This document shows, one piece after another, positions 3,001 through 42,703 of a stretch of 64,000 nt of DNA. The translations under genes and the position numbers were made by a program. Origin of the DNA: Tomocerus qinae (taxonomy: Eukaryota > Arthropoda > Collembola > Entomobryomorpha > Tomoceridae); contig CM034550.1 in the NCBI GenBank assembly GCA_020055645.1, forward strand, positions 12,041,001 through 12,105,000, given 5' to 3'. The notes under the pieces are model-generated. The model was not told the DNA's origin. It was given only the letters and a program-made list of their open reading frames with translations, and did no database searches. The stretch's first letter is position 1, and every line of letters begins with the position of its first letter.

Positions 3001-5139
3001 ATATTTGAATATTGTTAACATATGATATTAATGTACCTGAGTTTGTTTGGAATAAGATTGTGTGGGGAGAAAGTGTATTATCCTCCTTTGGGAAAGTATC
3101 CACCTGCTTTGCTTTCCTTTCTTGTGGTGCCCTGTTTCTCATCTTCGTCTGTTACAACTGAGTGAGTGAGACACTGACTCTTTTGCATTATAATAGCTAC
3201 ATCCACATTGCTTCAAAGTCTTCGCACACTTTTCCGCATATCACCAACTATATATATACAAGTATATAGCTTCTGAATTTTTTAGACGTCTCAGATCTCT
3301 TCCTCGATTCTATTATCACTGTCTTTACCATTAAGACTACTCTCTGCTACTACATACGCTGCATCAAATGCTCCACTTTGTTTAATACAAGTTCAACACG
3401 CCGCCTACTCAACGTATTATCTTCTCTTCTACTGAAACTCAACTATAAATCCACTTCTACTATATAAACTAATCTACAAAATACATTTTGTTATTCTTTA
3501 CATGCACTCAATAATAGACAGACATCCAGACTACTAATGAAATTATACTGACACAATACACACAGGTAGAAGTAGAACAGACACATCTTTGACAATACAC
3601 TTCAAAAACAAAAATTCACAGGTACACTAAAGTTTTAGGGAATAACAAAAATTAGGCATTACAGTTTACTCCAAAAGTCATCATTTCGTATTGTAAAAAC
3701 TTAAAATTAAGATAATCCAGTAATCTGTTAACATGTTTCGAAATAATATGCAATGAAATGCAGTTTAAAACTAATTAAAATTAAGAAAACTAAATAATCC
3801 TTTTAAATTACACTTAAAACTGACCATTTTTCGGAACAATATGAATGGAAACGTATTAACTACTGATTAAAATAATTAAGATTTAATATAGCTTAGTAAT
3901 CTATTGAATTCGCCCTTAAAACTGACCATTTTTTGGAACAAAATGAATTGAAAGTCATAATCAACGGTTGATAGGTGTTAAAATGGAGAAACGCAAAGGA
4001 ATTAAGTAGGAAGGCCTGAAAAGGAATTACGCTGCCTTAACAGTGCCATGATATACTTATAATCTTATTTGGTACCTGAATTTTGTGTAAGATGATGTTG
4101 TTCAGTTTGTATGGAGTAGTGTAGGATATTCAGAGTTACAAGGCAGAGGAGTAAAAGTACTCAAATAAATATGACTTGTAGAATTAGCCATTATGTCATG
4201 TCTGATATTTGTATGGATGTGCATGTAGCAGAAAAGTATCGTTAGTTATCCATAAAGCAAGACATTATGTGTCGAAATGTAAAAGTATTACTCCAGATGG
4301 TATGCAAATTAGATGAGCACAGTTTTTAATAGGTTAATTATTCAGTAAATACCGGTAGACACTGGAAAAGGGAGCAGATATGCAATTAAGACCCGTTAAT
4401 AAATTAATAGGATGGAAGATAATGTAAAGATGTAGTTTATCCATGATTGATGAGCATTAAGGTTTGCTATATGAATAATAAAGGAGTCCGCAAATGAAGG
4501 AAAGGTTAAAATATAGAATGATATTCATAAAAAATATATTAAGTATGTACACAGAGGATGATATAGTTCGTTGGTTCTAAGGAAGTTGAATCATAAATTT
4601 TTAAAAGTTAAATCTTGCACGGAGAATCTAGCGGATGTTGTCTACTGACATACACACACGTACTACATCAGTCTGAAACGGTATAGCCAATATTCATGAG
4701 ACTATTTCTAGGATAATTGACCATTATTTTGCACTCATTAGTTAAGAGAAACACTGCAACGGTACATTCTTTGTATTGCAAGCATAACATAGCATCGTCA
4801 AAGGAATACAAACGAACACCTCACCCAGCAATGCATGCACAAACTTTATTTCAACCAAGGTGGAAGGTTATCTTTGTGCCTTCAATCTTTGTGTACGAGA
4901 AACACGAGGAACAACGTCATTTTTACCTTCAGTAGCAGCAAAAATAAATACTAAACTCAAAATTTACTTCAAATAGTGAATTTAGGGAAATTCCAGTGAA
5001 TGTGCACTTAATTTTATCACTTTACATGTGATTAAGCCTTAAAAAAATATTCCAAAAACAATATTGTGATTTAAAAAAAATTGGCCCGTGAAATGTGCCT
5101 TATAGAATTTGCATGAAAGGCAAATGAAAAATTCGCACT
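1..5139. other. Intergenic region, no gene seen
   Basis: AT-rich DNA with only short, non-conserved open frames (none above about 80 codons). I could not chain any of them through splice sites into a recognisable protein. It holds a short ACT trinucleotide run near 2475-2491, TA-rich patches near 3250, and a degenerate repeat of about 100 bp at roughly 3700-3965 (listed separately). The last few hundred bases presumably carry the promoter and 5' UTR of the glucoside xylosyltransferase gene, but no clear core-promoter motif stands out. Confidence 0.6.
3700..3965. repeat. Degenerate ~100-bp direct repeat
   Basis: The string CTTAAAACTGACCATTTTT followed by a GGAACAA-type stretch and ATGAAT occurs near 3813 and again near 3915, a spacing of about 102 bp. 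A third, more diverged copy (GTTAACATGTTTCGAAATAATATG) may lie just upstream, near 3728. No coding potential is seen. It looks like an old local duplication or a fragment of a dispersed repeat. Confidence 0.4.
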
Positions 5140-8100
5140 ATGACAAGTAGCCCTAAAACCCATAGAAAATTTCACTACGAAGATCTCACAATGATTCGTA
5201 GCAAACGTAGACGCCTTTTTATTATTGGAGGAATTGTACTTTCGACGGTGTACCTAATTCAATATTCTAACTATGAGTTTAAAGATTCTTCTGGCAGCAG
5301 CCAATTGGCAAATACGAGAAACTCGCAATACAAAGGAAAAGGGAAGATATATCCAAGAGGAGTAGTTGTAAAAGTCAATAAAGCAAGCGGAGATAGCGGA
5401 AGGATGTGCACTGTCGCTGTTGCAATCATTCTGTGCCAAGATTCCCCTGCTGCACAAAATGTTAAAAATATACAGGGAAATTATCATACTGCGACAGATT
5501 TCAGTCGCCAGATTAATCAGACTGTTGTAATGCTTAAATCTATCGCCCTACTTACCAAATTCAGTGCCAATTCGACAGAACAAGAATCAGAAGAGTGTGT
5601 TAATGTTATCGTCATCTCTGATACTAAAGGACACTATAAAACTATCTTGAACAGAATTGACAAAGACGAAAAATGGTCCGATGATTTTAGAAAACGGATC
5701 AAGTTTTCATACATACCGGTCAAATATCCCACAGGTAATTTTCTGCAATAAAATCGAGGGAGATGCATACAAAAGACCGAATTGTATAATTAGAATTAGT
5801 ATAATACTTAATTAATTAGAATTAGATGCAAAATTTTCGGAGATAGAAAATAAATAGTAATTTATTTTCTTTCAGGATCGCAATGGATGAGAAAATTATT
5901 TCGCCCCTGCGCCACTTTGCGATTATTTTTAGCTGAACTTCTCCCAACTTACGATTCGTTAATTTATTTAGACACGGATATAATATTTTTTCAAAGTGTG
6001 CAAAACCTTTGGTCCGAGTTTCATCTATTTACCCATGCTGAAAAGGAAACTAATTTACCCATTGCGGCGATGGCTCCTTGCCTGTTCCATTACGGAACTA
6101 AACAAAACGAAATCCCGTACTATGGAAGTTCAGGCCTTAATGCTGGGATCATGCTCATGAATCTTACTAGAATGAGAAGTACTTTATGGACGCATAAAAT
6201 TCGAATGGTAACGACCATGTTCCAGAACAAAATCAAACTAGCGGACCAGGTATACCGTTTTAACAAAAATGACCAAATTAATCTATTTTTCATTCTTTGT
6301 CTTAAAAAAGTTTTTCGCTATTCTTTCTTCAGTATATATATGCAGATTTTAAAACATAATCCGCAAGAATCATTTGGCCAAATAGTCTTAGTTGCTTATT
6401 TTGCAAATCTAACCTGAATCACATTATGCATATTATGGTCATACATATACCGGCATTATCTATACACTTATTCCATGAACTTCATAAATGGATAGTCTTA
6501 TTTCACCAAAAAGGATAATTTTTTGTGATTTCTCTTTCCAAAATAGTTTTGTAAATACATGAAAGTGTTTGGGAATGGATACATTGAAAAGAGAAGGAAA
6601 TTACTCTAATTTGCATATTAACACATCTAACATATGTCTGTAATATCTGTACTCAACTCAAATTATGAAAAAGTTAAATTGTAACATTAACGTATTGTGG
6701 CATCATAATTCTACTGACATTGGAAGCATGCGCATAGCGTTCCTATGAAATATACGAATTAGAATAATAAAATTACGAAAAAATACCTCGCGTATGTTAA
6801 CAGACGTGACAGTGACTCCAAGCCATAGACACCAGCCACACCAGAGTTCAGCGGGCCAGCCAAATCAACTCCTCCAACTATCTCCAGCAACATTAGGAAT
6901 ATTGTAGTCGCAGAGTTGCTGTCGTTGTGAAGGTTAGTTTTTTTCTGAAGCTGTATTGATCTTTACCATCATCGACTCGTCGAAATCGCTTCGGATAAGT
7001 TGAAGTCAGGTCATCAGGTAAATAAATAATTGTTTCATTATTCATTTGCAATTATCTGTGCTAATTATTACGAGGGCCAACATTTAATATTGCTATTACT
7101 TCGCAGAGTCAAAATGGACACGGAAGTGATGCCAAAATTTTTCAAGGGCCGTGACATCGTTTGGCCAAATGACAACGAATTCACTTGTCGGTTTTGTGGT
7201 TTCGATGCCGAGGGTAGAGTGAGGCTCCAATTCTTAAGTTCAAAAATCGGCGTAAGTATTATCTTTAGTATTGACTAGTCATTAGTGTATAGAGTACCTA
7301 GTACCTGTTGTTGTATTCCTCTGTGTTTATGTTTTTAATTTAGGAAGATCGTAGGCGCATTAAATCTGAAATGGAAGACTATTATCGTATAAAGGAAAAT
7401 CGTGTCAATTTGAAATGGGAAGATTTGGAAGATCGGATGATTGTTGTAGTTTCTGCAAAGGGCGTTTATATTCGAGCTCAGATCATTGAGTTGCCAAAAG
7501 AAAAAAATGACGACGTGATTGTTATGAATGTGGACAATGACAGAGTACGTAAGTGCCATTATCGTGAACTATTGTGGATTCATCCTAAACACATGGAAGC
7601 CCCTTTTCAGGTATTATAACGTATTACTTCGAATATTTTTCTAACTGACAAAATTCAAAACCATTGTACGTTTTCTGTTTCAGGTGGCTCCGGTTGAGCT
7701 AAACAAATTGGAGTTTTTTCGTGGTAGCAGCTTCCTTCAATATATGATGAGAGATATGGAGAAGAAAATGTTTCACAAATTCGCATACATCAGGCTTATG
7801 ATGGACAGAGATAAGACTGTCCCTGTAACCGAGATTTACTTGGATGCTAAGAACAAACACTACTTAAATGAAATGGTGATTGAACGGTTGCAAAATTACT
7901 GCCCACAGCTTCCAGCTCCGGTACCCAATATTTTCTGTATTTTATCAATATGATTTTTACAACAAGGATTAAATTGTTTCTATTATAATAGGCAGGTGCA
8001 ATGATTTCCCATCTAGAACTGGATGGGACAATTTGGATCCAGAAAGATACACCTTTACTTCGCCTGATTCTTGCGTACAAACGGCCAAATCTCCAGATAA

Positions 8101-9780
8101 TAAAAGAAAGGTGCGAAAAGGAAAAAGAACAGACTTGTTGGGGTTACAACAACATCACGCGGCAATTATATGGCAAGCAGGAAAAAGTTTTTTATGGTCG
8201 ACACGAAGACAACAATTACTACAGAATCTTCGTCCATGGCAGTAATCCAAAAATGACCAGGGTAAAAATAATTTTTTGAAATACTTATTTCTTTGCCTTT
8301 AGGTACCTTTTTAATTTGAATTGTCTTTTAGTTTGATGTAGAGTTCATGGATTTTGGAGAACGTAAAACAATAAAATCAGGAGACATAAAAATCTGTGAG
8401 GATTTTGGTTATTTCAACAGCATTTTAAGACAAATCCCCCCACAGGTAGATGCAGTTTCCCTAATTTGATTGTACGTTAATGTTAGGAGTAATGTTTCTC
8501 ATTTGTGAACCATTTTATTTTTGTTTGTAGTGTATTAAGGCTCAGATGGCTGGCATAGGCCAATTAGACATTCCAACTTTTTGGAGTTACATTGATGTAA
8601 ACAAAACAATCATCAGTGTTGAGGTAAGTATATTATTATTTATTACTTTTTACAGTTTCTGTATTTAAAAAGTTTTTTATTGTGATATGGTCATAAGAAA
8701 TAAGAAATACTAAATATGAATTCTTTGTAGTTGACTGATGACCCGGAGGACATAACTGAACACAACTCCGAATTACCACATGTCAATGTTTTCATTTGGT
8801 CTGAAGATGAGGGGGGTACTAACAAGATCAATTTGAATCAACTCTTGGTGAACACGAGAAATGCGACCGATGAATATATACTCGGGCGGTTAGGAAAAGG
8901 ACGTCCAATCTCTCAGGATTCTCTAGATTGTGTTCCTGGACCTTCTTCTAGCAGTTAGATGCAAAAAATGAAGCTTCTCATTTTACATGGACTTTTGATG
9001 ATGATACAAGGACAAATTAAATATATTAATTGACATTGCCATACTTGACGTTTCATATAATGTTAAAAATATGATTGAATTAATTGAAACTTATTTTTTT
9101 TTAAATAATAAAGTTTGGATCGTTTCTACTTTCAAAAGCCTTTTGAATTGTAAACTTATTAGTCATACTTTTTTAGCTTCAGACGTTTTATGCAGTTATG
9201 AGTTAGGACATTCCGCTTTGCCTTCGTATGCTTTTTTCCTGATCTTTTTATGCATAATTTTGATTAATGGTAATGTAAACTGAGCTTGTGGGTTGTAGAT
9301 TAATGATTTTCTCTATTACAGGACATTCTGAATATATACTTCCATTTTTTCCCTGAGCATTTACATCTACTGTCATGTGATTGGAATTTTCGTCCGTTTC
9401 AATGCCGAAATGGAGGTTTTTGTCAAGATGCATCAATTTCTAAAGGGATATCAGCACTGCATGGAAATGCTCTTAGTTTTACATCACAAGGTCAAGAACC
9501 TCTTTTCCACACGATTTACGAAACGTTCCGAAAGTTGAAACTAGACGGTAATTTCTCCCTAGAATACTTTGTAGAGGACTTGAATTTTAATTTGATTGAA
9601 AGCGAGGAAAGGTATCGGATCAAAGCCATTTCGTCGGAGTGTGCCAACTGGGGAATATTTACTTCATTAGTCCTTCGTCGATTTGAAGGAATACTAAAGA
9701 GAGATGAGGGCGCAATTCTTGATGAAGTTCTATACGATGATTACGACAATTATACGGAAAGCTACGAAAACAACTTATAA
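5140..9780 (+). CDS. GXYLT1: Glucoside xylosyltransferase (GT8 family), 3 exons with a nested host intron
   Basis: Exons 5140-5734, 5876-6249 and 9322-9780 join in phase to about 475 aa. The product should be a Golgi type II membrane enzyme adding xylose to O-linked glucose on Notch EGF repeats (family knowledge). Visible features are a basic N-terminus and one membrane segment (about residues 26-40), the family block FRPCATLRLFL (207-217), the metal-binding DTD (231-233) and YYGSSGLNAGIMLMN. The join ADQ|DILN (321-327) is followed by CDWNFRPFQC and LHGN (369-372). Exon 3 supplies exactly the C-terminal motifs missing after exon 2, so the 6250-9321 intron is well supported. That intron contains the whole Tudor gene on the same strand. 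Translation could start at Met1 or Met18 (MIRSKRRR). A candidate AATAAA lies at 9968-9973. Drosophila shams is the family member known in flies. Confidence 0.88.
7114..8958 (+). CDS. Tudor-domain protein, nested in a GXYLT intron
   Basis: Seven exons, 7114-7251, 7344-7610, 7684-7920, 7992-8261, 8332-8445, 8531-8623 and 8731-8958, join to 448 aa; all six introns are phase 0. Two extended Tudor-like modules are visible. The first (about residues 66-125) contains VYIRAQIIEL and VMNVDNDRVRKCHYREL. The second (about 215-345) contains the typical core VEFMDFGERKTI. The N-terminus has a CRFCGF pair of cysteines. Tudor domains bind methylated arginine or lysine, and multi-Tudor proteins often act in germline granules and the piRNA pathway (family knowledge); the exact role here is unknown. 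The ATG follows an AG acceptor at 7106, so a 5' UTR exon probably lies upstream (possible donor near 7020). Host exons lie on either side on the same strand. An AATAAA at 9107-9112 fits its 3' end. Confidence 0.85.
9107..9112 (+). promoter_or_regulatory. Polyadenylation signal of the nested Tudor gene
   Basis: AATAAA about 150 bp after the Tudor stop codon and about 210 bp before the acceptor of the last GXYLT exon. If used, it would end the nested transcript inside the host intron. Confidence 0.5.
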
Positions 9781-9967
9781 ACCGAAAGAGTTTACTTTAC
9801 ATAGACTGTAATGGATGACTAAAATGTAGTACAGACGCTAGTCTGGCTGCAAAAGTAACAAATAGCCTTTTCGACTTAAATATCAATAACTAAAAAATAA
9901 TTAAACATTTTTTGTACATATAAGTCCCACGAATACGTAAAATTTTTAATATATTAATGAAAATCAC

Positions 9968-9973
9968 AATAAA
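9968..9973 (+). promoter_or_regulatory. Candidate polyadenylation signal of GXYLT
   Basis: AATAAA about 190 bp after the stop codon at 9780, in AT-rich sequence. Other near-matches exist nearby, so the choice is tentative. Confidence 0.4.
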
Positions 9974-10438
9974 ATTTTAAAAAATTCAGAAATTCTTTCC
10001 TTAACTAGATAATTCATTAAATCCATTTTATTAGTAGACATTTTTCGGTCAAATTCATACAATTAAAGCGCGTGCTGTTCATTATTCATAATATTTTATT
10101 AATAGTCTTAGCATACGTACTTTCCTACTAACACTACAGAATTAATTCATATGTGTCGATTCCAGCAAATTTAAGCTTTCAGGTGATGACTGATAAATTT
10201 GGTTTTCCATTTAATAAAATAAAGCAGAAAATTCTCTACAAAATAAAAAAAAACTCAAAATTTTAAACCCATTCCTACTATTTTTAAAAATTCATTGAAA
10301 CTGAGGCAATTATTTTATGCTTTCATAAAATAAAATAGAAATAAATTCAGTAAGTAACCGAAGGCCAGCATTGTAGAACATCCGACAATTCAAACTTTTA
10401 TGAAAATTAGTACCACCTTTCGTATGCAGCTTAGAAAC

Positions 10439-10608
10439 CATTTCCAACCACTTAAAAATCATTTCCAAACACTAGGAAATCATTTCCAAACACTTGGAAA
10501 TCATTTCCAAACACTTGGAAATCATTTCCAAATACTTGGAAACCATTTGCAAACATTTGGAAACCATTTCCAAACACTTGTAAACCATTTCCAAGCACTT
10601 GGAAAGGT
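10439..10608. repeat. 21-bp tandem repeat, each unit palindromic
   Basis: About eight tandem copies of a 21-bp unit, consensus CATTTCCAAACACTTGGAAA plus T or C. Each unit is itself a near-palindrome (TTTCCAA ... TTGGAAA). Because 21 is a multiple of three, open frames run through it on both strands (NHFQTLG repeats on +), but these are not genes. The array abuts the left end of the fold-back element; partial copies in opposite orientation follow its right end (about 11960-12005). Confidence 0.85.
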
Positions 10609-11950
10609 TTCTAAACACACCCAAGTGGGTGTGTTTAGTGGGAGGGGCAACCACACCCACTTGGTAAATACAGTTGTATTTTACTACCAATTTGGATTTT
10701 GAAGTTTCAAAACTAGCTGATTTCGAATAAATTGGACATTTTAACGAAATTTGAGAACTGGGTGGAGCGACTCCACCCATTTTCTTATATTTACACAATT
10801 AAGCTGTCAAATTCTATTTTGACGTTGTGGAACATGCTGATTTCGAATAAATTAGTCAATTAAACCAAATCTAAGAAGTGGGTGGGGCCAGCCTGCCTAT
10901 TTTCTAATATTTATATAATTAAGTTGTCAAATGTTATTTTAAGCTTTCGAAACATGGAAATTTTGAATAAATTAGTCATTTTAACGACACTTGAAAACTG
11001 GGTGGAGCGACTCCACCCATTTTCTAATATCTATGCAATTAAGCTGTCAAATTCTATTTTGACGTTGTGGAACATGCTGATTTCAAATAAATTAGTCAAT
11101 TTAACCAAATCTGAGAAGTAGGTGGGGCCAGCCTACCTATTTTCTAATATTTATTCAATTAAGTTGTCAAATTTTATTTTAAGCTTTCGAAACATAAAAA
11201 TTTCGAATAAATAAGTCATTTTAACGACACTTGAAAACTGGGTGGAGCGACTCCATCCATTTTCTAATATCTACACAATTGAGCTGTCAAATTCTATTTT
11301 GAGGTTTTGGAACATGCTGATTTCGAATAAATTAGTCATTTTAACCAAATCTGAGAAGTGTCTCCATGTTTCGAAATCTGAAAATAAAATTTGATAACTT
11401 AAATGTATGAATATTAGAAAATAGATAGGCTGGCCCCACACACTTCTCAGATTTTGTTAAATTTTCTAATTTATTCGAAATCAGCATGTTCCACAACCTC
11501 AAAATAGAATTTGGCAGTTTAATTGTATAAATATTAAAAAATGGGTGGAGTCGGCACACCCAGTTTCAAATTTCGTTAAAATGACTAATTTATTCGAAAT
11601 TTCTATGTTTCGAAAGCTTAAAATAAAATTTGACAACTTAATTGTATAAATATTAGAAAATAGGTAGGCTGGCCCCACCCACTTCTCAGATTTGGTTTAA
11701 TTGACTAATTTATTCGAAATCAGCATGTTCCACAACCTCAAAATAGAATTTGGCAGTTTAATTGTATAAATATTAAAAAATGGGTGGAGTCGCTCCACCC
11801 AGTTTTCAAATTTCGTTAAAATGTCCAATTTATTCGAAATCAGCTAGTTTTGAAACTTCAAAATCCAAATTGGTAGTAAAATACAACTGTATTTACCAAG
11901 TGGGTGTGGTTGCCCCTCCCACTAAACACACCCACTTGCCTGTTTAGAAA
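10609..11950. mobile_element. Fold-back element with 120/240-bp repeat units
   Basis: The ends mirror each other. The left starts with TTTCTAAACACACCC, then GGGAGGGGCAACCACACCC. The right ends with GGGTGTGGTTGCCCCTCCC, then GTTTAGAAA. Between them, two kinds of ~120-bp unit alternate. Kind A is marked by GGGTGGAGCGACTCCACCC, itself a near-palindrome; kind B is marked by GGGGCCAGCCT. In the left arm, A recurs at about 10759, 10999 and 11239, an exact 240-bp period. Orientation flips near 11360 and the same units continue inverted to 11950. No transposase is visible. The structure fits a Foldback-type or other non-autonomous hairpin element; the family is unknown to me. Confidence 0.8.
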
Positions 11951-12216: not shown

Positions 12217-15200
12217 TTACGTAATATTGCATTCATGATTTTCAAATGGACGCCTAGTTTGAGAACCGTAGCCTGAAAAATATCTTTGGCGGGGGAAACG
12301 ATGGGAATAAAACATGTCTTCGGCAGAGCTATCGCTGCTTGAATCAAAATTGTAAGTAAAGTCCGAACCTGAGTCTGAAGAACTGGTATTGCGGGTTTTC
12401 TGTTTCTCGCTATCATCAAGGTGAAGATCTTCGAATTTCATTGGTATTTCATGAGTTTCACCGAAAATTAATCCTGTCTTAGGTTTTTCGTACGTCCGAG
12501 TGAAAATACATCGTGGAAATTTCGGGTCACATACAGTGTAGCTTAATAGTAAATCTTGCAAATAAGTATCAACATCTGAAGTCGAATTTGATAATATTTT
12601 GTCACATACTACTTCTAAGTATACTTCAAAACTTTTCCGGGCAATTCGTCCATAATTCCGATATGTGGGATCCTCTGATAAAGATAAACACTCATAGGCG
12701 CTTTCACAAATTTTCATAATTTCTCTCAATTCAGTTACATAGTTCAGACTTTGGATTTTCGTCTCACGCTTTTCCTTCCAGTCTTTTAAGCAGGCCGCTT
12801 TGATTTTCTCCAGAAAATCAATAAACAACACGTAAAAAGCATCAAAATTGTACATCCCTACGAAAATCAGATGATTATTATTTTTCCAAAACATTATGTT
12901 CGAGACATTAATCAGGAATATATTGTTTTACAACTTTTAATTAACTAACCAACTGTTTCTGAGAAAGGCCCCCATTTGTTAGAAGCGTAATGTAGAAACC
13001 CAATTTTTTCATTGGAGCCGAAATAAATGTTCTTTTTCTTCTCCAAAGAATACGAAATTGTTGTTGGTCTAACTCTGCTGACCGCATTTTGTAACATCTC
13101 AGTCCCATATCCTATCTGAGAATTTAAGGATTGCAAAAGGAATTTATCGAACTTCAATGAGAGCCAATGATCTTTGTGAAGTTTCTTCGCTACGATTTCC
13201 TTCAACACAGAATCAGATTTAACACATTTCTTTTCCGAAAAGTTGTCCACATCTATTTTCAATTCTTTCAGAGTGTCTTCAACATGTTTCTGGATGAAAT
13301 GGAACCTCCATTCCGTCTTACAACCATAGCATTGCCAAACGTAATTTGGAGAGTAAACGTTTGAAATACTTTTTCCCGGCTCGATTCTGAGGGTTTTTGG
13401 ACATAGAAATCCTCCACACTTTTCGCCATTACAAATTACACCGAATGAGGTATCCAGTAAATCGTGCTTGCAACGTTCGGACCCACATATTAAACCTGTT
13501 TTGGAATAAAGCTTTGATGCGGATGATGATAATCCCTCTTCGTCTTCTGACATGTAATTTATGCTGATTTCTGCATTAGGTTTAATTTTGTCCACAATCT
13601 TCACTACAATTTTATTTTGGTCATCAGTGGTATACATTGCATTAGGGCGACAGCTATGGGGCATCCAAGATAAGAAATCGTACAAGACTCTCATTCTACA
13701 ATTAAAATGCATAAATTAAAATACACAAACAAAAAAAATAAATTTAAGTTTGTGCATGGATGTAATTTAGAGCAGTTAAAATAAGTATATTCCCATCGTT
13801 TTCTGTTCATTTCTTAAACCAGTAAAATTATTTTAAACTATGAATTCAAATTTCAGAGTCGACAAAAATATACCGAATTGGATTGAATATTCGTCTTGAT
13901 TTTCACAAGGATAATTAGTTATTAAAATCAATTTTTTTACTAAGTACCTAGGATTCTTTACTGAAGTAGTACTGAACAATGCAATGATTCGTTTCACATC
14001 TTCAAGTCGGAGAACATTTTCGCCAACAGTTTTCATGTAATTTTCTGCAATTGGCGTATTTGATTTCACCCACGATTTAACCACTTCGGGAGTTGTCCGG
14101 AGGCTGTTAGTAAATCGGACATTAAGTTTCAAATTGACAAAAGCATTCCAGTGAGGCAAATCCGTTTTTCGCAAAATTATTGCTCGTAGAACAGTCAAAT
14201 CTTTAATTAGCTCCTTATTCTCATGTGGGCGTTTGTTTTTAAGATCCATCACATCTCCAATTTTCTACTCGTACCAAATATATAGAAACCAACATTAAAT
14301 CAATATCACATTTGCTTAAAACTAAAAATGATAGTCCTCTTTACCTTGCTAGCATCCTTTATTGCAATACATTCCTCCTGACTATGTTTGCCGTTTTCTT
14401 TATCCATATAACAACGTTTGCACAGAGGAAGTTTACAGGAAGGACACATTGAGAAAACCAAACTTGTCCCACCATTGTCTAAACACCCGAGGAAATCTTC
14501 CAAACAACCCAAACAAAAACTTGGAGCATTTTTCGGGTCCTGGGCATCTATATCTCCATTTGGTTGGACATAATTAGGAGCAATAAAAATAGGAGATTCT
14601 TTAAATAAAACGGTGCCCGGATCAATATGTTGACGAGCAACGACATAGCGATCTTCCAGGGGAATTGTTCCTTTGGTAGTGGCATTTTTAGCTCCTGATG
14701 AATACAAACGGAGAGAGCATCCCACAGCTCTCTTCATTGGAACCGTGAAAGGAATGCAATCGGATTTGTGAGATGAAAAATCTTGTTCTTCGTGCTTTTT
14801 ACAGCAATAAAATACATTTTGACAAATGCAAATTTGGGTTGTCTTTTTCTTACAAACTTTACACGCCCCCTTTATTTCTTGCTCTGGGCCAATACCTAAA
14901 AGTCACACAATTCCCTTATCAGAAAAGGAGTAACATGGTGAAAATAATATTAAATATAATCCATAAAAGTCCAAGTCCAAACAGTCCGAAGTCTAAATAT
15001 TATTATTACTAATTGCTCTACAAATGACAAACCTGATGTACTCAATTTTCTTGTATTGGTATTGGTAGCCGAAGACGCCTTTGGTGGACATTTTGAATTT
15101 CCTGACCCTGACTGTCCCTGTTTTCCTGGTACTGATAGTCGTGATTGTGTTACCGGAACCTTTTTCTTAGATCGCTTTCGCTTTGAATCTGCCATCGAAA

Positions 15201-18934: not shown

Positions 18935-21900
18935 TTAAATTGGGATTTTAGTCAATGATGCTGATGCCGCTTCTTGATCTTGAACCATGAGTTTTTCAAC
19001 GTAAAGTTTTAGATGCGAAAGAGCTCCAGTTGCCTCTTGAGTAAGTAACATCACTTCTTTGCTGCTATTGTATCCTTCGTAAACAGTCATAATTTGAAGT
19101 GCTTCTTTAAGAATTTTCAAACAGGTCAATAACTGCTGAATAAAATCTTTGCGACTGATCTCATTTTCTTGGAAGCTACGACATGTCAGTGTAAAATTGG
19201 CAAAAAACTTGTGGATATAAGTAATTCCTGTAACAAATCATTACCAATTATTACATGAAATGAATTTTTGACAAAATAAATTGTTATTGAAGTATTATTT
19301 ACCTTTGTCAATCCAAATACCGGGACGTATACAGTTGAGATGTCTTTCAACTGCTTCACAGTATTTCTCTATTGTTTTGAAGTTTTCAATTGTCTCAAGA
19401 GTATGAATCGTATGAGGGTCGGGGGATCTGATCGTCTCTAAATTTTGTCTCAGGTAAGTTTCTACAAATGCCCATGCCGTTAGCACTAAACCATGTCCAG
19501 GGTTTAAATCACTAGTTCCACGATTTTCGATAAATTGCATAAAACGTGGAAGGCCTTCTTTTCCTGAAATATTAATGGCAGTAATCAGTATTTTAACATT
19601 ATTAACATTTAATTATTTCGAAGAACAATAATAGAAGAGTAATAAAAATGATTAATTACCCAAACGAATAATGGAGCCGAGTTCCCGTTTGCATTTTTTC
19701 TCGATATCCTGTATCTTGGCGTACGGGGTCTCCTCTTGACACGTAGCACATGACCATACGGAATTCTCCCACATCTGAGGATTTTCAGTAGACACTAGTC
19801 CTTTTTTACAGAAAGGACAAAGAATATCTGCAGTAGTATCGCCAAATTTACTAGGTCCTGTGCATCGACGACATGTGCAATTGTGGATGCTTAAATTCTC
19901 AAGAATTTTTCTTCTGTAGGGATAAGGTAAGTACGGGTTGGGAGCAAAGTCTACGGTGATCAGTTCCCCTTTAAGAATAGGAAGTGAAGCTTTGGTTATT
20001 AATGTCATCTTCTGAGGACTGCCAGTCTTTTCATCTTCGACAAATTGAAGCGTATTTGGGACACATTCGTGTGCGAATTCGTTGGCTTGAGAGAATAGCA
20101 TTTTATAGCTGGAAGACAAAGAGATAGAAATTATCATCATTTTCACATTACAGGAATTTAATTAACTTTCTTATAACAAACTTACGAGCTTTTGAGACAA
20201 GGTCTGAAAGACAGGGCAGTAATAATTGAATGCGCATCCATAATGAGATCATAGTTATATCCCGAAATTTTGGCACTGTATGGGACTAGGGTTTTCACTT
20301 TTTGTGTGAAAATCTTAAATCGCAAAGATTTCTTATAAGTAAGAACTCTAACATTGTATCTCAGCTCGATGAATTTCTCCCAGAGAGAATGGTCGTAACT
20401 TTCCAGCTGCAATGCACGCAAGATTTCGACATCCATGTACAAACTGTGGTAACAGCTTTTAGAGATCTCATCATCACCCTATAATTTACAAACCAAAATT
20501 AGTTAGAACCTATATCAATATATTGTAACTAATACTATCTTTCAACATAGATAATAAAGTTTATTAATAATTACCAATCCTCCCGAGGCAAGAATAGCGT
20601 GACATTCTCCAAGCTGATGAGACACCTCTAATTCGCAATGTTCGGAACAAAGGGGCAATCCACATTTCGTGCACTGATGTCTCGCAGGACCGATAAACTC
20701 GACGACTTTCATACAACCAAAGCAAGCTGGTTTTCTAGCCTCGCAGTAAAATCCCGGAGGAATAACAGGACTGGCATTTCTAACAGGTGCACTTGTCCGA
20801 CCGAGACAATCAGGTGGATCGTCTATAAAAGCTCGAATGCAAGGATAGTCCATAACATGAGAGAAATCATCATCGGGTGCAGCAAGTGGAAACACAAGAA
20901 AAGGTTTTTCTACAAATATCATTTGTCCAGCATGAATATTCCTTGCCGCCACGTGCGCCATCACAGGTTCTCCGTCAGCTCCTTCCACAATATATTCGAA
21001 TTTAAATGGAGAACAACGAAACTTGTGCCGTTTCCAGTCAGAACGCTGGTGCTCTTCCCCACAGTAAAAGGCTTGTTTGCAAGAGCTGCATTTTTTCACT
21101 GCGGGCTTGGAACAGTTCAGAACGTCACAAGGGTTGAGAATTCCATCAAAAACAGTGTTGCAGGAACTGAGAGTAGGATGAGGTGCTCCAGTAGTGGAGC
21201 TGGAACCGGCTATACTGCCAGACTCTGAAGAATTCAACGATTCCCCAGGAAGTAGATTTTCGTGCTTATTAAGAATGGCTGTTGGGGAGAGATTAGACAG
21301 ATACCAGCTGCCCCCAGACGCTCCTTCGTCCTCCTCATCACAAAAGTCTTCCTCCAACTCTAAACCCAGAATTGTTTCAGGCTCCGTGGAAGATTCTCCC
21401 GTTGTTTTCGTTTTATTAATACTACTGCTAACGAGACTACTGGAACTACTAGAACTCCCCACCTCCCCAAGAGAAATATCTTTTAACTTACTACTGACAA
21501 GATTAACTGAGTTTGAATAGGAATCCATGTCCGCAGTCGAATCAGCTGATACCAATACGATATTGTTGGAGTGGTTGACACCCCGAGATTTTGATCCATT
21601 TTGAGAATAGCCACCGTATTCGTAGTCGTAATCTGGGTACGGCACATTCCCGTTTTTTCTAATATTTGCCAGCTGACTGGAATTTGTATGTACTTTGGCG
21701 ATTTGAAATATTCCACCACTTCCCCTACCTTCCGTAACACTGATCCCCCAACTCTCTGCGTCCATATGCTCATTATTTTTATTAGGGATATCATTATCTT
21801 CGTCAATTGGTGTGATTGTGATACTGTTACTCGTGTTTTTATTCCGGCGACGTCGTCGTTTGGGCTTTGTTGAGGTAGAATTTGAACTTGATTTATTTGC

Positions 21901-22455
21901 GTCATCTTGGATTGGAGGAGTTCCGCCTGAGTTCTCGCCATTAAGATTACATTTTTCGAATTGCACGGCAGTTTGAGTACATTCTGCTAAACTCACTACT
22001 TTTATTATTTGTGGGACAATAAATTCTTCGGTTATTACGTTTTCATCTCGACTTTCTACGTCTTCGATTATTTTTGGTTGAACTCGCGTGGGGAAAACTG
22101 ATTTTATTGTACGGGGTCTTGGAATTCTGAGGGGGATGATTTCCTCTAATTCACTACTTTTAGAATGCTTACTCACCCCGTTTGTGGTCAAGGGCTTCCC
22201 AAGAATCCCAAAATCTATTTTGTCACTCACGCTAACATCTTTGGTTGGGGATTGCTTTGGTTTCTCCACTAATTTTTGTGAAATTAAATCTTCCGTATAA
22301 GACTTAACACCGGAGCTGGAAGATTGTTCGTATGAGCTGCTGCCGTTAGAATTAAGATTTGAGCTAGAATTTGAACTCTGTCCGTTCGCACCCTCTGAAG
22401 GATTTTCCACAGATTCACTGCTTCTGTTTTGCTTTGACTTTGACTTCTTTGTCAT
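18935..22455 (-). CDS. SET and MYND domain protein (SmydA type), long Ser-rich N-terminus, 5 coding exons
   Basis: Coding exons 20575-22455, 20186-20478, 19660-20108, 19303-19563 and 18935-19227 join in phase to about 1058 aa. The first ~440 residues are low complexity (Ser/Asn/Gly runs) with a basic patch KPKRRRRRNK that could be a nuclear signal. A canonical MYND finger spans about 443-482 (C..C, CSSC, FYCGEEH, H, C). The SET N-part reads MAHVAARNIHAGQMIFVEKP; a Cys insert (CFGC...CTKC...LCSEHC) follows. The SET core has ANEFAHECVPN (733-743) where active members have NHSC.PN, and GELITVDFAP. Post-SET cysteines (CTCRRC, CPFC, CATC) are present. The C-terminal third is helical (TPR-like in other SMYDs). 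An AG acceptor at about 22479 just upstream of the ATG implies a non-coding 5' exon. It lies in tandem with another SmydA gene. Confidence 0.85.
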
Positions 22456-25400
22456 GACTTGACACAAGTGTAAAACTTCTGTAATTAAAATCAACAAAAG
22501 AAAGATTTCATATATTATTAATCCCTTCGGTTCAAGAGTTCAGACTTAAATTAATAAGGTTCCACAAACATCAAATATATTGTTATTGTATTTAAATATT
22601 GATAAATTCTCACGTACACTTCCCCAATTGGCTTTTATAGAAACGTCTTTAAAACACGCATTTATATTTCAGAAGAAATATGAATCCAATACAAAGAAAG
22701 AATTCTATCAATGATCTTCGTGACGAAGACCGTGCTAAATATAGCCGAAACTCCGAAAGCTCTTGCGTCCTTACATACTAAAATCAAAAAAATTATTGCT
22801 GTATAAGTAAGACCATACTGTTACCTTTTTAGTTTTTGATTTTATCTATCAATGAATATTATTAGTTCTACGAGAAACTTTACCTTTTCGATTTTCTGAA
22901 AAACTATTGTTATTTTGCAATGATGTTCCGGAAATTGAAAATCAGGAATAAATGTTCAAGATGGGTTGGTATAAAACCACCCCAATAATGGATAGATTTT
23001 GATTTTCAATTTCAAAAGATGTTGTTGTATTAATACTTTGACGATTGATCTTGTCTCCTGTATGGATTATTGAACTGACACTGTCCTCAGGCAGCACCGG
23101 TTTTTTGGTAGGGATGGAGCTCGAAGATAATTATTAGATGCCCACTGCCCAGTTGTTGCCCCAATTTTAATTTTGCCTTGAAGACCTAAGATATATATGC
23201 ACAATTTCATAAAATAAATATTATCAATTACTACCAATTTTTCACCACAATCTGGGATTGCAGTTAACATAAAATTAATCTGTTCTAATTCTAAATTCTC
23301 AAAATGTGACTTTTCTAATACTGAAGAATTTCGCCCAAATCTTACAAACAAAACAGAACAAAAAATGGTATTTGTTATGAAAAAAGATTGATTATTACCT
23401 TAATCCTCCAAAATCAATTTCCGCCACACAAAAATTCTGAAGTCACTAAATAGTAGCACAGAACTATAAACTTCCCCAGTTGTTAATGCAATTACGAGAT
23501 GACAAACGGTATTTTATATTATTTTCGGACTGATTGTCAAATTAACCGTAAATACCTCAAAATGTTAGATACTTAGCACACTTAGAGTAAATCGTGTTAC
23601 ACTAAGTAAGTAACACGTATCACTTTTAATGTATACATATATGAGATAATAATATCGAGTTATGTTCGATCACCAAATAATAATTTGCACACAGCCGCCT
23701 TTTTGGGATTGCTTTTCAGTTCAGAACTAATTATTTATATGCAATTAGTGAATTCTTGTATGTAGACAATAAACAATTTTAAGTAGATATATAAATTCAG
23801 TTTAGGTTTAGTAGTATGCTCATGTGTTTGTGTAAAGATTGTGTAGGTGTTGAATATCGAAGGAGGTTGCATTGGTAAGTACCTAAATGTATAGGTTGGT
23901 GTTATGTTGGCCGATAAAGTTTTGAACAGTCAGGTAATGGATGGTTTTTTTCGCTCTATGTATACCTTTTTATTTTGGGAATACGTATTATTTGTGTGTA
24001 AGTGAAAATTATGTTATTACGTTTATTATTATGTACACTGCTGATTGTTAAGCTTTTTTTGGTGAGTAGGTAGGTGCCCAGTAGTACCTACCTAAATATA
24101 GTGCTAGGCCGTATATAAAACGGGATTTTAGGGTTCACACTCCAAGCCCCATTCAAACTCAAACCAAAAAGGAGCTATATAACTCTGTACTAAGCATGAG
24201 AAGGATACATTCAAGTTCCCCGAAAAATTCTGTTCATACTACACTTTAACGTGCTGTGTAGAGAGACAAGCACTTACTTCCCAAGTCAAGCTTAAACATA
24301 GCATAATAAACACCAGCCAAACATACAACATAGAACAGGCCAGGTAGTGAAATGTAAAGGTAAAGTTCGGTGTTTTCTAAAGAGTAGGCAAAATTTATCT
24401 TCATACAACATTAGATACTGCTATACTTATGTATAGATTGTAGATATCCGCTCTACACAGCCACTTCTCTACTCTCCTTGCTATACCATTCTACAGGGTG
24501 TCTGTAAACCAAGTCTACACCCAAGAACCTATCTACGCCCATGCAATCGCCCATTTTTAAACGAAAAAATATCCAATCATTTCCAATTGCAATTTTTGGT
24601 ATTAAAAAATTTGGAATAAAATAAAAAATCCGTTATAGATACTCTAAAATGTCAAAAACAAAAACATGGCAAACTTAAAGCTTAATTTACTAATGGCGAA
24701 TGCAGAGAAAATTGGTGAAAAATTATAACGAGACTATGAAACAGATGTAGATTTCAAAATAATTTTTGCGCCTATGAAAATTTCATACATTTGGAATCGA
24801 AGAGACTTTTGGCCATTTTCTCGGTATTTTCGGAGAATAATGGAACCCTGTATGTGGGATTGATAAGATGTACATGCAATAATAATGCTCTGTTCTCTTT
24901 GCTAAATATCTACCTACGCGTAAATCCTTTATAAATTCAAGCATCAACAACTACCCAGTATCTTTTATGCTGTTCCAAACAGAGCGCCTTGTTTCCCTTT
25001 GGATCCCCATCCTTCCCTTTGTACATATTTGTATATACATGTATATCTTTCTTTACATATCTTTATTCTACCTCTCCTGTTCTGCTCAAAAGTATAACAT
25101 TTATGTGTTGAATATCTAGACTCCTTCCCTTCCCGCTCTTTAATGCAACTTGCAATTCTCCACAATACATACTAGATAGCCTAGCCAATAACTTCTTACT
25201 CTTTTGCCATTCTGCAACGTTTCGCATGCACTTCGCGTGGGTATGTAATTTATTCATAGTTCCATGATTTTCATGATCTTTAATGGAAAACCTGAATTAA
25301 ATACTACAAAGGACTACGACTTGGGTAATTAATCCTCGGGTAAGGCGTAAATAATACTGTATGTGATTTTTATCGATCTTCATGCAAAAATGATGGAAAA

Positions 25401-25791
25401 TTAGGAAATTCGTTTTGTCAGTGCAGTTGGATGCTCGATCGAATTTCTCGTTTTGTTCAAAATGGAAATGAAGGCCAGTTTTGAATTCCATCTCTTTGAA
25501 AACGGGATTTTCGGCTGATTCTGCCTAGAATGTCAAGGTAGGTTATTCCTATAACGACAATTTTAATTTTGCTCATCTTGGAGAATGCAATGCAAACAAA
25601 TATGAATTTGCGAAAACTATTCATTCTCCACATTGACGACAAACCTCAAAAGACAAAACTCACGGAGCAATTTTATTGCATTGATCCCTGGAAAATTCCG
25701 AAATAAAATCGTCTTTTTGAAGGTGTCAACAGAAATTGAGTAGACTGTTCGAAGGAAGGGACAACCGAGATTCTTAGAAAACTTCAGCGAA
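22456..25791. other. Intergenic region, divergent promoters
   Basis: About 3.3 kb between the minus-strand SmydA gene and plus-strand Ran. It should hold the SmydA 5' UTR exon (beyond the acceptor near 22480) and the promoters of both genes. No conserved protein is seen in any frame; several short minus-strand frames (for example 23067-23351 and 25457-25642) lack family motifs. No repeat array stands out. Confidence 0.55.
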
Positions 25792-26445
25792 ATGGCTCAA
25801 GCAGCTCCCGCAGTGGATATGCCGACATTCAAGTGTGTACTGGTGGGTGACGGAGGCACTGGTAAAACAACATTCGTGAAGCGTCATCTGACTGGAGAAT
25901 TCGAAAAGAAGTATGTGGCTACTCTCGGGGTCGACGTTCATCCGTTGGTGTTCAATACAAATCGGGGCACTATTCGATTCAATGTTTGGGACACTGCAGG
26001 TCAAGAAAAATTCGGAGGATTGCGAGATGGATACTACATCCAGGGTCAATGTGGTATAATAATGTTTGACGTAACTTCTCGAGTGACCTACAAAAATGTC
26101 CCTAACTGGCATCGTGACTTGATTCGGGTCTGTGAAAATATTCCGATCGTTCTCTGCGGGAACAAGGTGGATATCAAGGATAGAAAAGTCAAGGCCAAGA
26201 CCATTACTTTCCACCGCAAGAAGAATCTTCAGTATTACGATATCTCAGCGAAGAGTAATTACAACTTTGAAAAACCGTTCCTCTACATGGCTCGAAAATT
26301 GGTCGGTGATCCCAATTTACAGTTTGTCGCAATGCCAGCTTTGGCACCTCCAGAAGCTACAATGGATCCGCAATGGCAACAACAGATAGAGCAGGAATTG
26401 AGAGATGCCCAGAATGTGCCCCTTCCTGATGATGACGATTTATAA
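25792..26445 (+). CDS. Ran: GTP-binding nuclear protein Ran, single exon
   Basis: A 217-aa protein almost identical along its whole length to animal Ran, the GTPase that drives nuclear import and export and organises the spindle. All G motifs are present: GDGGTGKTT (19-27), switch I with [18 protein letters not shown] (67-76), NKVD, and [13 protein letters not shown]. The acidic tail ends PDDDDL, the Ran hallmark, and there is no prenylation cysteine. The start Met is the one matching family length. The coding region has no intron, unlike nearly all other genes in this window. Substitutions from vertebrate Ran are conservative, so the copy looks functional. It is convergent with the secreted-protein gene that ends at 26861. 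An AATAAA lies at 26604-26609. Confidence 0.97.
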
Positions 26446-33300: not shown

Positions 33301-35643
33301 ATATTCGCGTTCCACATTCTAACTAAGGAAGACTTAGTGAACTTGTGTACAGTAATATCTGTTACAGCACCGATTAGTATTAGCAATAGAATAATACCTA
33401 CTTAAAATTTGGTCATAATTAGTGTCAGTCGACGCTGGTCATACACTATATACCATTAACATGTCTATAATACAAACACATGTTCTCATAATAGTTTAAC
33501 ATTCATGAATTGTCTAACTGTACCTATAATTAGAATCTTAGTTCCGTAATGCCAATTCATTGTAAGTCATTGCAATAAGTTGGTTAAATATTTAATTAGG
33601 ATTCACTGATGACACAGCATCTAACAATGTGTAAGGATAGAATATTTCTTGTGGATAAAAATCGAAGAAAATGGAAAGCTAGAAGTGAGAATACATAAGC
33701 CGTGACCCAGACCCACTCTTATAAATGTACATAGCAATATAATCGTATGTAATTTTATTATGTAGAGTTTATAGTCAGAGAAAGATATACTTATTACCAT
33801 TATTAAATCCACTCACCCTACCACTCTTACTTACAAACTTACACTACAATTTAATGTAATGAAATCCACAACTGTACAAGATATATCGAAGAGTACCTGA
33901 AGAAACGATGAGGGATACGTTTAGTATAGTTACTATGTACATATAAGTACATTGAACTGAACTCGACTCATTCTACTAGTCCACATAAACGAACGTAAGA
34001 CTTAAAAAGTCGACTAAAATGCAGGTCAACATTTTGAAGAGTCGGCCAGGCCATTGCGCACTGACTGACGATGAGTATTGCACTGCATTCTTTGCCTCTA
34101 CCTCTCAACAGGTAGTTGCCTCAGTGCAAAACTTGAATTCTCTTTTTGCTGAACCCCATTGTCAGTAGCATGATCATCGTACGAGCCAAAGCAGACAGTA
34201 ATGACCACACCACAGAAATTTTGCACATCATGCCATATCTTAAAGTGCATGTGTAAACTCATAAACACTACTTGTAGTAAAAACAGGTGAAGACTTTATA
34301 GTACTATGCTACAACAAAATGTGTTTCTTAGATTTTAGAATCTACTATATAGTAGATAACTATAAAGAAAAATCAAGACAGGTTTTTACAATGAAATTAT
34401 AGTTCGTTCCGTAGTATTGATTCAATAGGTATAGATTTTTGGTGTAGGTGCTTTTGTTTTGGATTTCCCAATATCTATCTGTACAATATCCATATAGTAG
34501 TAATGGTCTCGACTCGTCTCACTTGATTTCATTCATTTTATAAATGAAAACTGCTTTGATTCATCAAAACAACAGAATGTCACAATCTCATCTCTCTTTT
34601 CTTTGTAGTATAGTGACCTACCTAATATCCTTTATGAAATTTTCTTTCAGTTTAAAATGATTGAGACAAGAGATTGTTCAATATCCTGTCTACCTGAGGG
34701 AAACTGAAGCATAAATACAATAGAATAATAATTTTGTGAAATTCCCATTATATAAATACAAAGTGAGGAACTGGAGTAAAGATTATAGACGGGAGGAATG
34801 TAATTATTATTTAGTTCATAAAGTATATTTTCGTAGTAGAAACGGTTTAAAAGATATATTATGTATGTCTATGTCAAGTGAAGCTAGCCAACCTAGATAT
34901 TCACTACAGTATATACCAGAACAGAATATAATAGTATAACGGAGTATAACGAGTAAAACTTTCCACAATGTCCATCTCTATAGAGTACAATAGGGCAGGT
35001 TGTCGAATTGAATGTTTAGGTTAGAAGTTAGAATTAGCTTACCCCTTAAGCTTCATCTCAGTCTCAACTCTCTCAGATGGGAGTAGCGAGTGTTCGTCTG
35101 CATACACCTGTGTTTAACAATCATTATTATGTTATACATCAGCTCTACATTTAACTAATATCAAGTGGCAAGTTTAATGGTAAAGTGATTTGAATTTATA
35201 CGAATAGTTTGGAAAATAATTTGTTATATGGGGCGAGCCAGAATATAATTCTGATTCTGGCTACTTTACTATTATGTACAGAGTACATAATAATTCTATA
35301 CAAGTCTGCATCAGCACAGGAGAAATTCTTGTGCAATTTTTCAACAGTTTTCGACCATTCAGTCAGCTACGATTTGTACAAAACAACAATGTAAGAGTCT
35401 AGAAGAGAATTCTAGCATATACAGGATTTTTGTGTTCTCATTATTCTTCTAAAAGAATTACTCAACTCTTGAAAAGTTCAGTGGAGTGAAGTGGAAACGC
35501 ATGCAATACAAATTATTACAACTACAAAATCATTTAGTACAATCTTTACTTTGACTGTGGATTTCTAGTGTTAAAAAAATTGTTAAAGAATTCTAGTGAC
35601 TCTCGAGTGAATCAATTCAATTGATTCTATACAAAAGTTAAAT
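27312..35643. other. 8.3-kb gene desert
   Basis: The longest stretch without a recognisable gene. The frames are short (under 95 codons), AT-driven and unrelated to families I know. No tRNA cloverleaf, tandem array or long inverted repeat was evident by reading. The right end should contain the promoter and 5' UTR of the acyltransferase gene at 35644. Distal enhancers, lncRNAs or long UTR introns cannot be excluded from sequence alone. Confidence 0.55.
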
Positions 35644-37356
35644 ATGGTGTGGGCACAAATTGTATACATATCAACACTAGCAGCCCGAATCTACATCCCG
35701 TCAATTATCGCCTGGCTTGCCAGTCATTATGCATTCAAAGCACCTGCGATTGCCTTTATGGCAGAAGTTATCATTGGATTCACAACAGTGTCACTTGTAT
35801 TTCCACTTATAGTAATTGCTATTTCCATCAATCTTTTTCTACGGTTTTGTCTTACCTTGTACTTCCGCTTTCGCTATGGATCCAAGTTGTGGTTGATGGA
35901 CGGTCGAGACAGTTTTGTCAGTCATGATGAATTTGCCAATTCGTGTAACCACTATTCGCTGTATATTATGGAAGGACATTGCTCCCTCAGTGTAATTCGT
36001 GACAAATTTTCGTGGATCTTGGACCAGAAACTTCCTGGAGACGATGAAAATCGTGAGCCAGTTTACGACAGGATGAAGAGAAGGCTTGTGAATAAATTTG
36101 GATACTATTGTTGGGAGCACTTGGGAGAGCAATTTGATATTTCCCGGCATGTGCGCTATTTGACTGATGACGCCTCCGCAGTTTTCAGTGAACAGGATGT
36201 ATTTGAAGAACTGAAAAAATTATACGATCACCCTCTGCCAAATGACAAGTCACAATGGGAAATCCTTGTTATTCCTAAATATGTGTACAATGCCAATTCT
36301 CCAAATCAGAAAAAATCGTACTATGGATTCATCGTCAGGATGCACCATTCTATTATGGACGGGATTTCTGCCGGAAATGCGCTCCAGCATTTCATTGCAG
36401 ACAAACCAATGAAGCTGACTGTGGATCCTTTAAGTGTCGCTCACAAGTTACCTTTGTACAAGGTTATTTTGGCTTACCTCCAAGTGCTTATTTTGGGACC
36501 TAGATCTTTTCTCAAGACTTTGACATTGGACGAGAGTAATTGTTTTCACGGTCCAAGACTTACAGGACCGAAGACACTAGGATGGTCCAGACAAGTTAAT
36601 ATGGAAGCTCTGAGGAAAATTAAAGAAGCTACAAAAACGTCCGTAACGGCTGTTCTTGTCAGTTGTCTTGGAGGATCTGTAAGAAACTTGGCAGAGAAGA
36701 AAGGCCTTCATGTTCCTACTAAATTCCATGCTTTTCCAACGATAGGCATGCTCCCTTTTAAGGATATCAGACCTAGAAATCAATTTGTTATGGCATTGTT
36801 ACCGTTGGCTGTAGGACTTGAAACAAGTCTCGAAAGACTTAGGTCCGCTTATAGATCTTTCAAGGATTTGCTCAATTCTCCCGATATTCTTGTCAATTAT
36901 CACCTCATGGATATTATTGGAATGTTTCCTGTCACTGTAATTAACTTTTTCATTGATATGTGCCATGCTACGATGCTACTAAGTAATGTTCCAGGACCTG
37001 CGGAAAGAGCTAAGGTTTTCGGTGGGGATGAGATTGTTGATATCGGTATTTGGGCTCCTATTCAACTTGCTATGGGTAAGAAATTTCAAAATTATTTTTT
37101 TTAAATACACAAAATTAAATTTTGTGGAGAAAATCGTAAAAACAGAATAAATAGTTGATTTTTGTTTTTAATGACGTTTTCAGGCATTGGAATGTCACTA
37201 TTTTCCTACGGGGGAATTGTAAGAGCTACAATTGTAGCTGATCAAACAGCATGCCCTAATCATTCAGATGTGCCAACATTGATACAAGAATTTGAAAAAG
37301 AAATTGTAGTTCTTGCCAGACAAAGTAACGTCCCAGAACAGGAAGTTTTCCTTTAA
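35644..37356 (+). CDS. WS/DGAT-like O-acyltransferase, membrane-anchored
   Basis: Exons 35644-37075 and 37184-37356 join in phase 1 to 534 aa. The protein matches the wax ester synthase / acyl-CoA:diacylglycerol acyltransferase family. The catalytic HHxxxDG motif is intact as HHSIMDG (residues 234-240). The C-terminal half has the family blocks SNVPGP and a final segment ending near FSYGGIVRATIVADQ. The first ~75 residues hold two or three hydrophobic segments, anchoring it in a membrane (ER or lipid droplet in relatives). The expected reaction is acyl transfer from acyl-CoA to a fatty alcohol or diacylglycerol, for wax or storage or cuticular lipid; the substrate is inferred only. Arthropod members are less studied than plant WSD1 and bacterial WS/DGAT. 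AATAAA is at 37903-37908. Confidence 0.88.
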
Positions 37357-42534: not shown

Positions 42535-42660
42535 ATACCCATGCTAAGTCCCATGCTAAGTCCCATGTTAAGTCCCCATGCTAAGTCCCATGTTAAGTCC
42601 CCATGCTAAGTCCCATGTTAAGTCCCCATGCTAAGTCCCATGTTAAATCCCCATGCTAAG
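42535..42660. repeat. ~26-bp tandem repeat in the element centre
   Basis: Alternating CCATGCTAAGTC and CCATGTTAAGTCC blocks give a ~26-bp period, about five copies. They lead directly into the CCTAA tract. The GTTAAG/CTAAG core resembles diverged telomere-like units. Confidence 0.8.
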
Positions 42661-42703
42661 TCCTAACCTAACCTAACCTAACCTAACCTAACCTATCCTA
42701 ACC
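42661..42703. repeat. Interstitial (CCTAA)n / (TTAGG)n telomere-like tract
   Basis: About eight tandem CCTAA units (one altered to CCTAT) sit between the arms of the palindromic element. TTAGG is the ancestral arthropod telomere repeat (established knowledge). Only about 43 bp, so it is an interstitial tract and not a chromosome end. Confidence 0.85.

Follow-up and report, generated by a model that had tools for sequence, protein, structure and literature searches.

We find that a 64,000-nucleotide (nt) stretch of the genome of the collembolan Tomocerus qinae (positions 12,041,001-12,105,000 of contig CM034550.1, assembly GCA_020055645.1; hereafter the window) very probably carries two separate protein genes, one inside the other: a complete gene with two Tudor domains lies, on the same strand, within intron 2 of a gene for a GXYLT-like (glucoside xylosyltransferase-like) enzyme. 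The entire coding sequence of the inner gene (7114-8958) falls within a single intron of its host (6250-9321), and both genes are read from the + strand. The window contains no N, and the genome to which it belongs is assembled as 334 Mb in 115 contigs.

The host gene has three coding exons (5140-5734, 5876-6249 and 9322-9780; 595, 374 and 459 nt, all +), which join to a frame of 475 amino acids and a stop. Exon 1 is open from an ATG at 5140, encodes what appears by eye to be a hydrophobic stretch near the N-terminus, and ends at the donor CAG/GTAATT; a phase 1 intron of 141 nt follows. Exon 2, bounded by an acceptor and a donor, carries the core of the glycosyltransferase family 8 (GT8) domain with the DxD-like motif LDTD, and closes on LADQ. 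Exon 3 supplies the final D of a DQD block, continues the frame through CDWNFRP and LHGN, and stops at 9778-9780; beyond it an AATAAA at 9968-9973 (+) is a candidate host poly(A) signal, as a hexamer match only. Between exons 2 and 3 lies the phase 0 intron that carries the nested gene, with its donor CAG/GTATAC at 6250 and its acceptor TTACAG/GA, the AG of which is at 9320-9321. At 3072 nt it is the exception among the introns of the two genes, the remainder being 70-141 nt long. An earlier note on this DNA had ended exon 2 with ADQ at a GT donor at 6250, and these coordinates hold exactly.

The joined host protein gives a single match to Glyco_transf_8 (PF01501) over residues 127-348, with a score of 63 bits against a cut-off of 24.3, and the junction of exons 2 and 3 falls inside this match, after residue 323. 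Searched singly, exon 2 scores 43.5 bits, and neither exon 1 nor exon 3 gives a GT8 match at E up to 1. The gain in score on joining comes partly from exon 1, and exon 3 holds only about 25 of the matched residues; alignments with proteins of known structure are therefore the stronger proof of the join. In a comparison with the Protein Data Bank (PDB) at E up to 10, the host protein matched five sequences, namely LARGE1 twice (E = 8.4e-10 and 1.3e-9), XXYLT1 (2.7e-6) and the bacterial LgtC twice (0.069 and 0.27), with no GXYLT among them. The three printed alignments (LARGE1 twice and XXYLT1) run without a gap across LADQ/DILN, the counterparts reading LADQDIFN and LGDQDFFT, and the conserved DQD block is divided by the junction, with exon 2 ending in DQ and exon 3 opening with D. 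The host also aligns with a block of human GXYLT1; 85 of 241 columns are identical, and the alignment crosses the junction and takes in the CxWNxRPxxC and LHGN of exon 3. Because the alignments to LARGE1, XXYLT1 and the GXYLT1 block all cross the junction, we assign exon 3 to the host; the claim that the family alignment resumes after the AG at 9320-9321 is borne out by the same alignments. The GXYLT1 block is, in addition, a lead that favours GXYLT over its cousins XXYLT and LARGE, and the predicted host product is best described as a GXYLT-like family-8 glycosyltransferase, a putative xylosyltransferase. The host protein has the GT8 domain and a DxD-like motif in common with GXYLT1/2 and Drosophila Shams (PMC3675014); unlike the locus described here, these are presented in the sections of that paper drawn on without mention of a nested gene.

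With a single assembly as the basis for this structure, one might suppose that exon 3 comes from a second, broken GXYLT copy, or that misassembly has put the Tudor gene between host exons. This we regard as extremely unlikely. Residue and phase both fit exactly at the junction, and neither the frame nor the family alignments show a residue lost or duplicated there. A tblastn search of the window with the host protein (E up to 1) returned two rows, one covering exons 1-2 and the other exon 3, and so no further copy of any host exon; the idea that exon 3 is a piece of another gene copy was rejected on this result. The assembly itself is also hard to reconcile with such an error, given its 115 contigs, a contig that extends beyond 12.1 Mb, a window free of N and a nested gene that is found once.

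The nested gene has seven coding exons on the + strand, which join to 448 amino acids and a stop. Exon 1 (7114-7251), exon 3 (7684-7920) and exon 6 (8531-8623) are placed by their splice sites and the joined frame; exon 2 (7344-7610) holds the first TUDOR domain, exons 4 (7992-8261) and 5 (8332-8445) hold the second, and exon 7 (8731-8958) ends in a TAG at 8956-8958. The six coding introns are all of the form GT..AG, are 70-107 nt long and are all of phase 0. Consistent with a coding role, the exons are richer in GC than their own introns (0.474, 0.316 and 0.428 at the three codon positions, against 0.247). No second copy of the nested exons was found in the window by tblastn at E up to 1. Compared with its own genome at E up to 0.01, the nested protein gave seven matches, which are its own seven exons (three candidate places were scored, and distant paralogues may escape), and a limited search with the DNA of the nested gene matched one place.

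The Tudor assignment comes from PF00567, which matches each half of the nested protein (27.3 and 28.8 bits; cut-off 23). When the ten exons of the two genes were searched against Pfam singly, GT8 in host exon 2 and TUDOR in nested exon 2 (23.1 bits) were the only matches to reach their cut-offs; nested exon 4, with the first part of the second domain, gave no match by itself, and five sub-cut-off rows of other families were taken for chance. A PDB search with the Tudor protein returned nine rows, all at chance level (best E 0.58) and none of them Tudor by name, so the assignment rests on Pfam. The 448-residue frame, the TUDOR matches and an AATAAA at 9107 together uphold the proposal of the earlier note that the 3.07 kb intron holds all seven exons of an unrelated gene together with a poly(A) hexamer.

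The usual Tudor motif is D-[YF]-G. Judged by eye against this motif, the second domain retains NNYYR...EFMDFGE (EFMDFGE being on exon 5) and the first does not; there NVD replaces D-[YF]-G, and the first domain looks degenerate. Such degeneracy might be expected of a pseudogene or of a gene that is not expressed, but the frame is intact over all seven exons and six of six introns keep GT..AG, and we think it highly unlikely that the nested gene is dead or silent. An aromatic cage is a feature of extended Tudor proteins. In Tudor domains of this extended, germline or piRNA type, extra N-terminal strands stand ahead of the barrel, as described in part of PMC12147562. That the nested product acts as a germline factor is a guess based on its family.

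Upstream of the ATG at 7114, an in-frame stop is present in each of the three 5' arrangements tried (unspliced, spliced from donor 7018 and spliced from donor 6933); after removal of 7018-7106 it stands 8 codons ahead of the ATG. The nested gene probably has an eighth, non-coding first exon, because the strong donors at 6933 and 7018 lie just upstream together with an acceptor AG at 7105-7106. These two donors and that of nested intron 6 are the three in the host intron that match 8/9 of the consensus. A candidate intron in the 5' untranslated region would thus run from the GT at 7018 to 7106 (+, 89 nt), preceded by a candidate promoter or non-coding first exon at 6780-7017 (+), which is suggested by the two donors and by composition: GC is 0.40-0.44 with 7-8 CpG per 150 nt across 6700-6999, against 0.27-0.29 and 1-3 CpG across 6250-6699. 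At the other end, the AATAAA at 9107-9112 (+) is the candidate nested poly(A) signal, 149 nt past the stop and 209 nt before host exon 3. We rejected this hexamer as strong evidence, since five AATAAA occur in the 3.07 kb intron, where about four are expected from base composition by a hand estimate, and what supports it is its placement alone.

Several of these observations weigh against the nesting of two independent genes. The promoter and the poly(A) site of the nested gene have been guessed from base composition and hexamers, the region 6780-7017 has no match to simple initiator or TATA patterns, and transcription starting above 6794 would include an ATG there, ahead of the nested start. 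The host donor CAG/GTATAC, moreover, matches 6/9 of the consensus, within the range of the nested donors (6, 6, 5, 6, 7 and 8), and both gene models are read from the DNA sequence of a single assembly. Because the host donor is not distinct from the nested donors, clean skipping of the nested exons is an assumption and not something that can be read from the sequence.

Another way to view the Tudor exons is as alternative exons of the host, with host exon 2 spliced to nested exon 2 or a later one, so that the product would be a glycosyltransferase-Tudor fusion in one frame or the transcript would have an alternative 3' end. Host exons 1-2 followed by the nested exons from 2, 3, 4, 5, 6 or 7 give an open frame as far as the nested stop in 6/6 joins (725, 636, 557, 467, 429 and 398 amino acids), and nested exons 2-6 would be usable as a cassette before host exon 3 (802 amino acids). 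Exonisation upstream of nested genes is, in addition, an effect reported in the part of PMC3192792 used here. All six joins are in frame because host intron 2 and the six nested coding introns are all of phase 0, the six of six being a raw count. Against this reading, the nested gene owns a coding exon 1 and a start, with stops upstream, and host exon 2 joined to an acceptor ahead of nested exon 1 runs into a stop 15 residues further on if the exon starts at 7107, or 6 if it starts at 7109. A fusion would furthermore set Tudor domains behind a Golgi-type enzyme deprived of its C-terminal part, which seems biologically implausible. We consider it very unlikely that the Tudor exons serve the host in this way, and a functional host-Tudor fusion is likewise unlikely.

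If the two genes are indeed separate, the host pre-mRNA would be spliced from 6249 to 9322 and the nested gene discarded as intron, while the nested gene would use its own promoter near 6780-6950, its own splicing and cleavage near 9110-9140. Activity of the nested gene, or use of its poly(A) site, would truncate host transcripts before exon 3, and the two genes would probably be active in different tissues or interfere mildly with each other. The earlier note had raised a coupling between a Notch-modifying enzyme and a possible germline factor; this is unsupported, and the parts of the papers on nested pairs consulted point to interference or separated expression. On these papers, interference appears a likelier relation between the two genes than a useful coupling. 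A further reading treats the nest as a regulatory switch, in which a Tudor-active tissue (for example the germline) would cut the host before exon 3 and lower the Notch-modifying enzyme, with some in-frame host-Tudor joins as all the introns concerned are of phase 0; this we hold to be distinctly improbable.

Nested genes in other animals provide a context for these possibilities, and the figures that follow come from portions of the papers cited. Same-strand pairs make up 76/296 simple nested pairs in human and 55/248 in mouse (PMC8467205, Table 1), and 75/227 in an older human set (PMC2330155, Table 2), counts that agree with the earlier statement that same-strand nesting is less common than opposite-strand nesting, though it is not rare. 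Conservation to mouse was recorded for 22/75 same-strand and 79/152 opposite-strand pairs (PMC2330155, Table 2). In flies, nested genes make up about 6% of all genes (PMC3786989) and are often testis-specific within broadly expressed hosts (cited in PMC8467205), a pattern that would suit a Tudor gene; for mammalian nested pairs, the title of PMC8467205 announces no expression divergence. Exonisation, intron retention and cryptic polyadenylation have been reported for human nested genes (PMC3192792), and at mouse H13/Mcts2 active transcription of the nested gene shortens host transcripts (PMC13309782).

The present locus resembles the parallel pairs of these surveys (PMC8467205, PMC2330155) in having a complete gene in one intron, read in the same direction and thus of the minority class, and differs from them in its partners, a GXYLT-like host and a two-Tudor nested gene. 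Like Mcts2, the nested gene lies inside a host intron; Mcts2, however, is a retrogene whose promoter is an imprinted CpG island (PMC13309782, in part), whereas the gene described here has six coding introns. The tim2/2mit pair of Drosophila (PMC3786989, in part) likewise places a nested protein gene in an arthropod host intron, but on the opposite strand. A literature search combining GXYLT, Tudor and nested gene (any two) returned no title on this pair. The nesting is thus ordinary in kind, and the GXYLT-like/two-Tudor pair is a further example of a common class.

As for how the nest arose, the six coding introns make a retrocopy origin unlikely, and arrival of the nested gene by insertion or duplication at the DNA level appears more likely. 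Among the repeats of 5000-10400, which fall into 7 direct and 11 inverted families, all short, no direct pair brackets the nested gene within the intron. One AT-rich inverted pair (6423-6441 and 9240-9258; 19 nt, 79% complementary) does bracket it, and was taken for chance among many families.

Elsewhere in the window, in which Rfam found no match, 21-nt tandem repeats occupy 10430-10605, about 0.65 kb past the host stop. Beyond them stand the arms of an inverted repeat (10617-10996 and 11564-11943; 380 nt, 96% complementary), made of 120/240-nt tandem units; the whole (10617-11943) could fold into a long hairpin and is perhaps a non-autonomous element. TTAGG, the reverse complement of CCTAA, is the telomere repeat in many arthropods, and a 12/25-nt tandem array at 42538-42703 adjoins 8.4 copies of CCTAA (42662-42703), possibly an internal telomere-like stretch. 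Other open frames comprise an unbroken one of 497 amino acids at 35611-37101 with wax ester synthase/DGAT matches (Pfam above its cut-off, NCBIfam below), a 233-amino-acid frame at 25744-26442, possibly a retrogene, in which an almost complete Ras-family domain lies in one stretch, and, on the - strand, frames matching SET (12948-13715), MYND at a score slightly under the cut-off (14309-14902), a MYND finger (20545-22539) and the FGGY carbohydrate kinases (45144-46280), the C-terminal part above its cut-off and the N-terminal part below.

Returning to the two-gene nest, its practical consequence is that gene-prediction programs may run the two genes together or cut them short. Because the nested poly(A) hexamer lies 209 nt ahead of host exon 3, splicing across the nest and early cleavage would compete directly, and the locus offers a compact 3 kb test case for how same-strand nested genes coexist.

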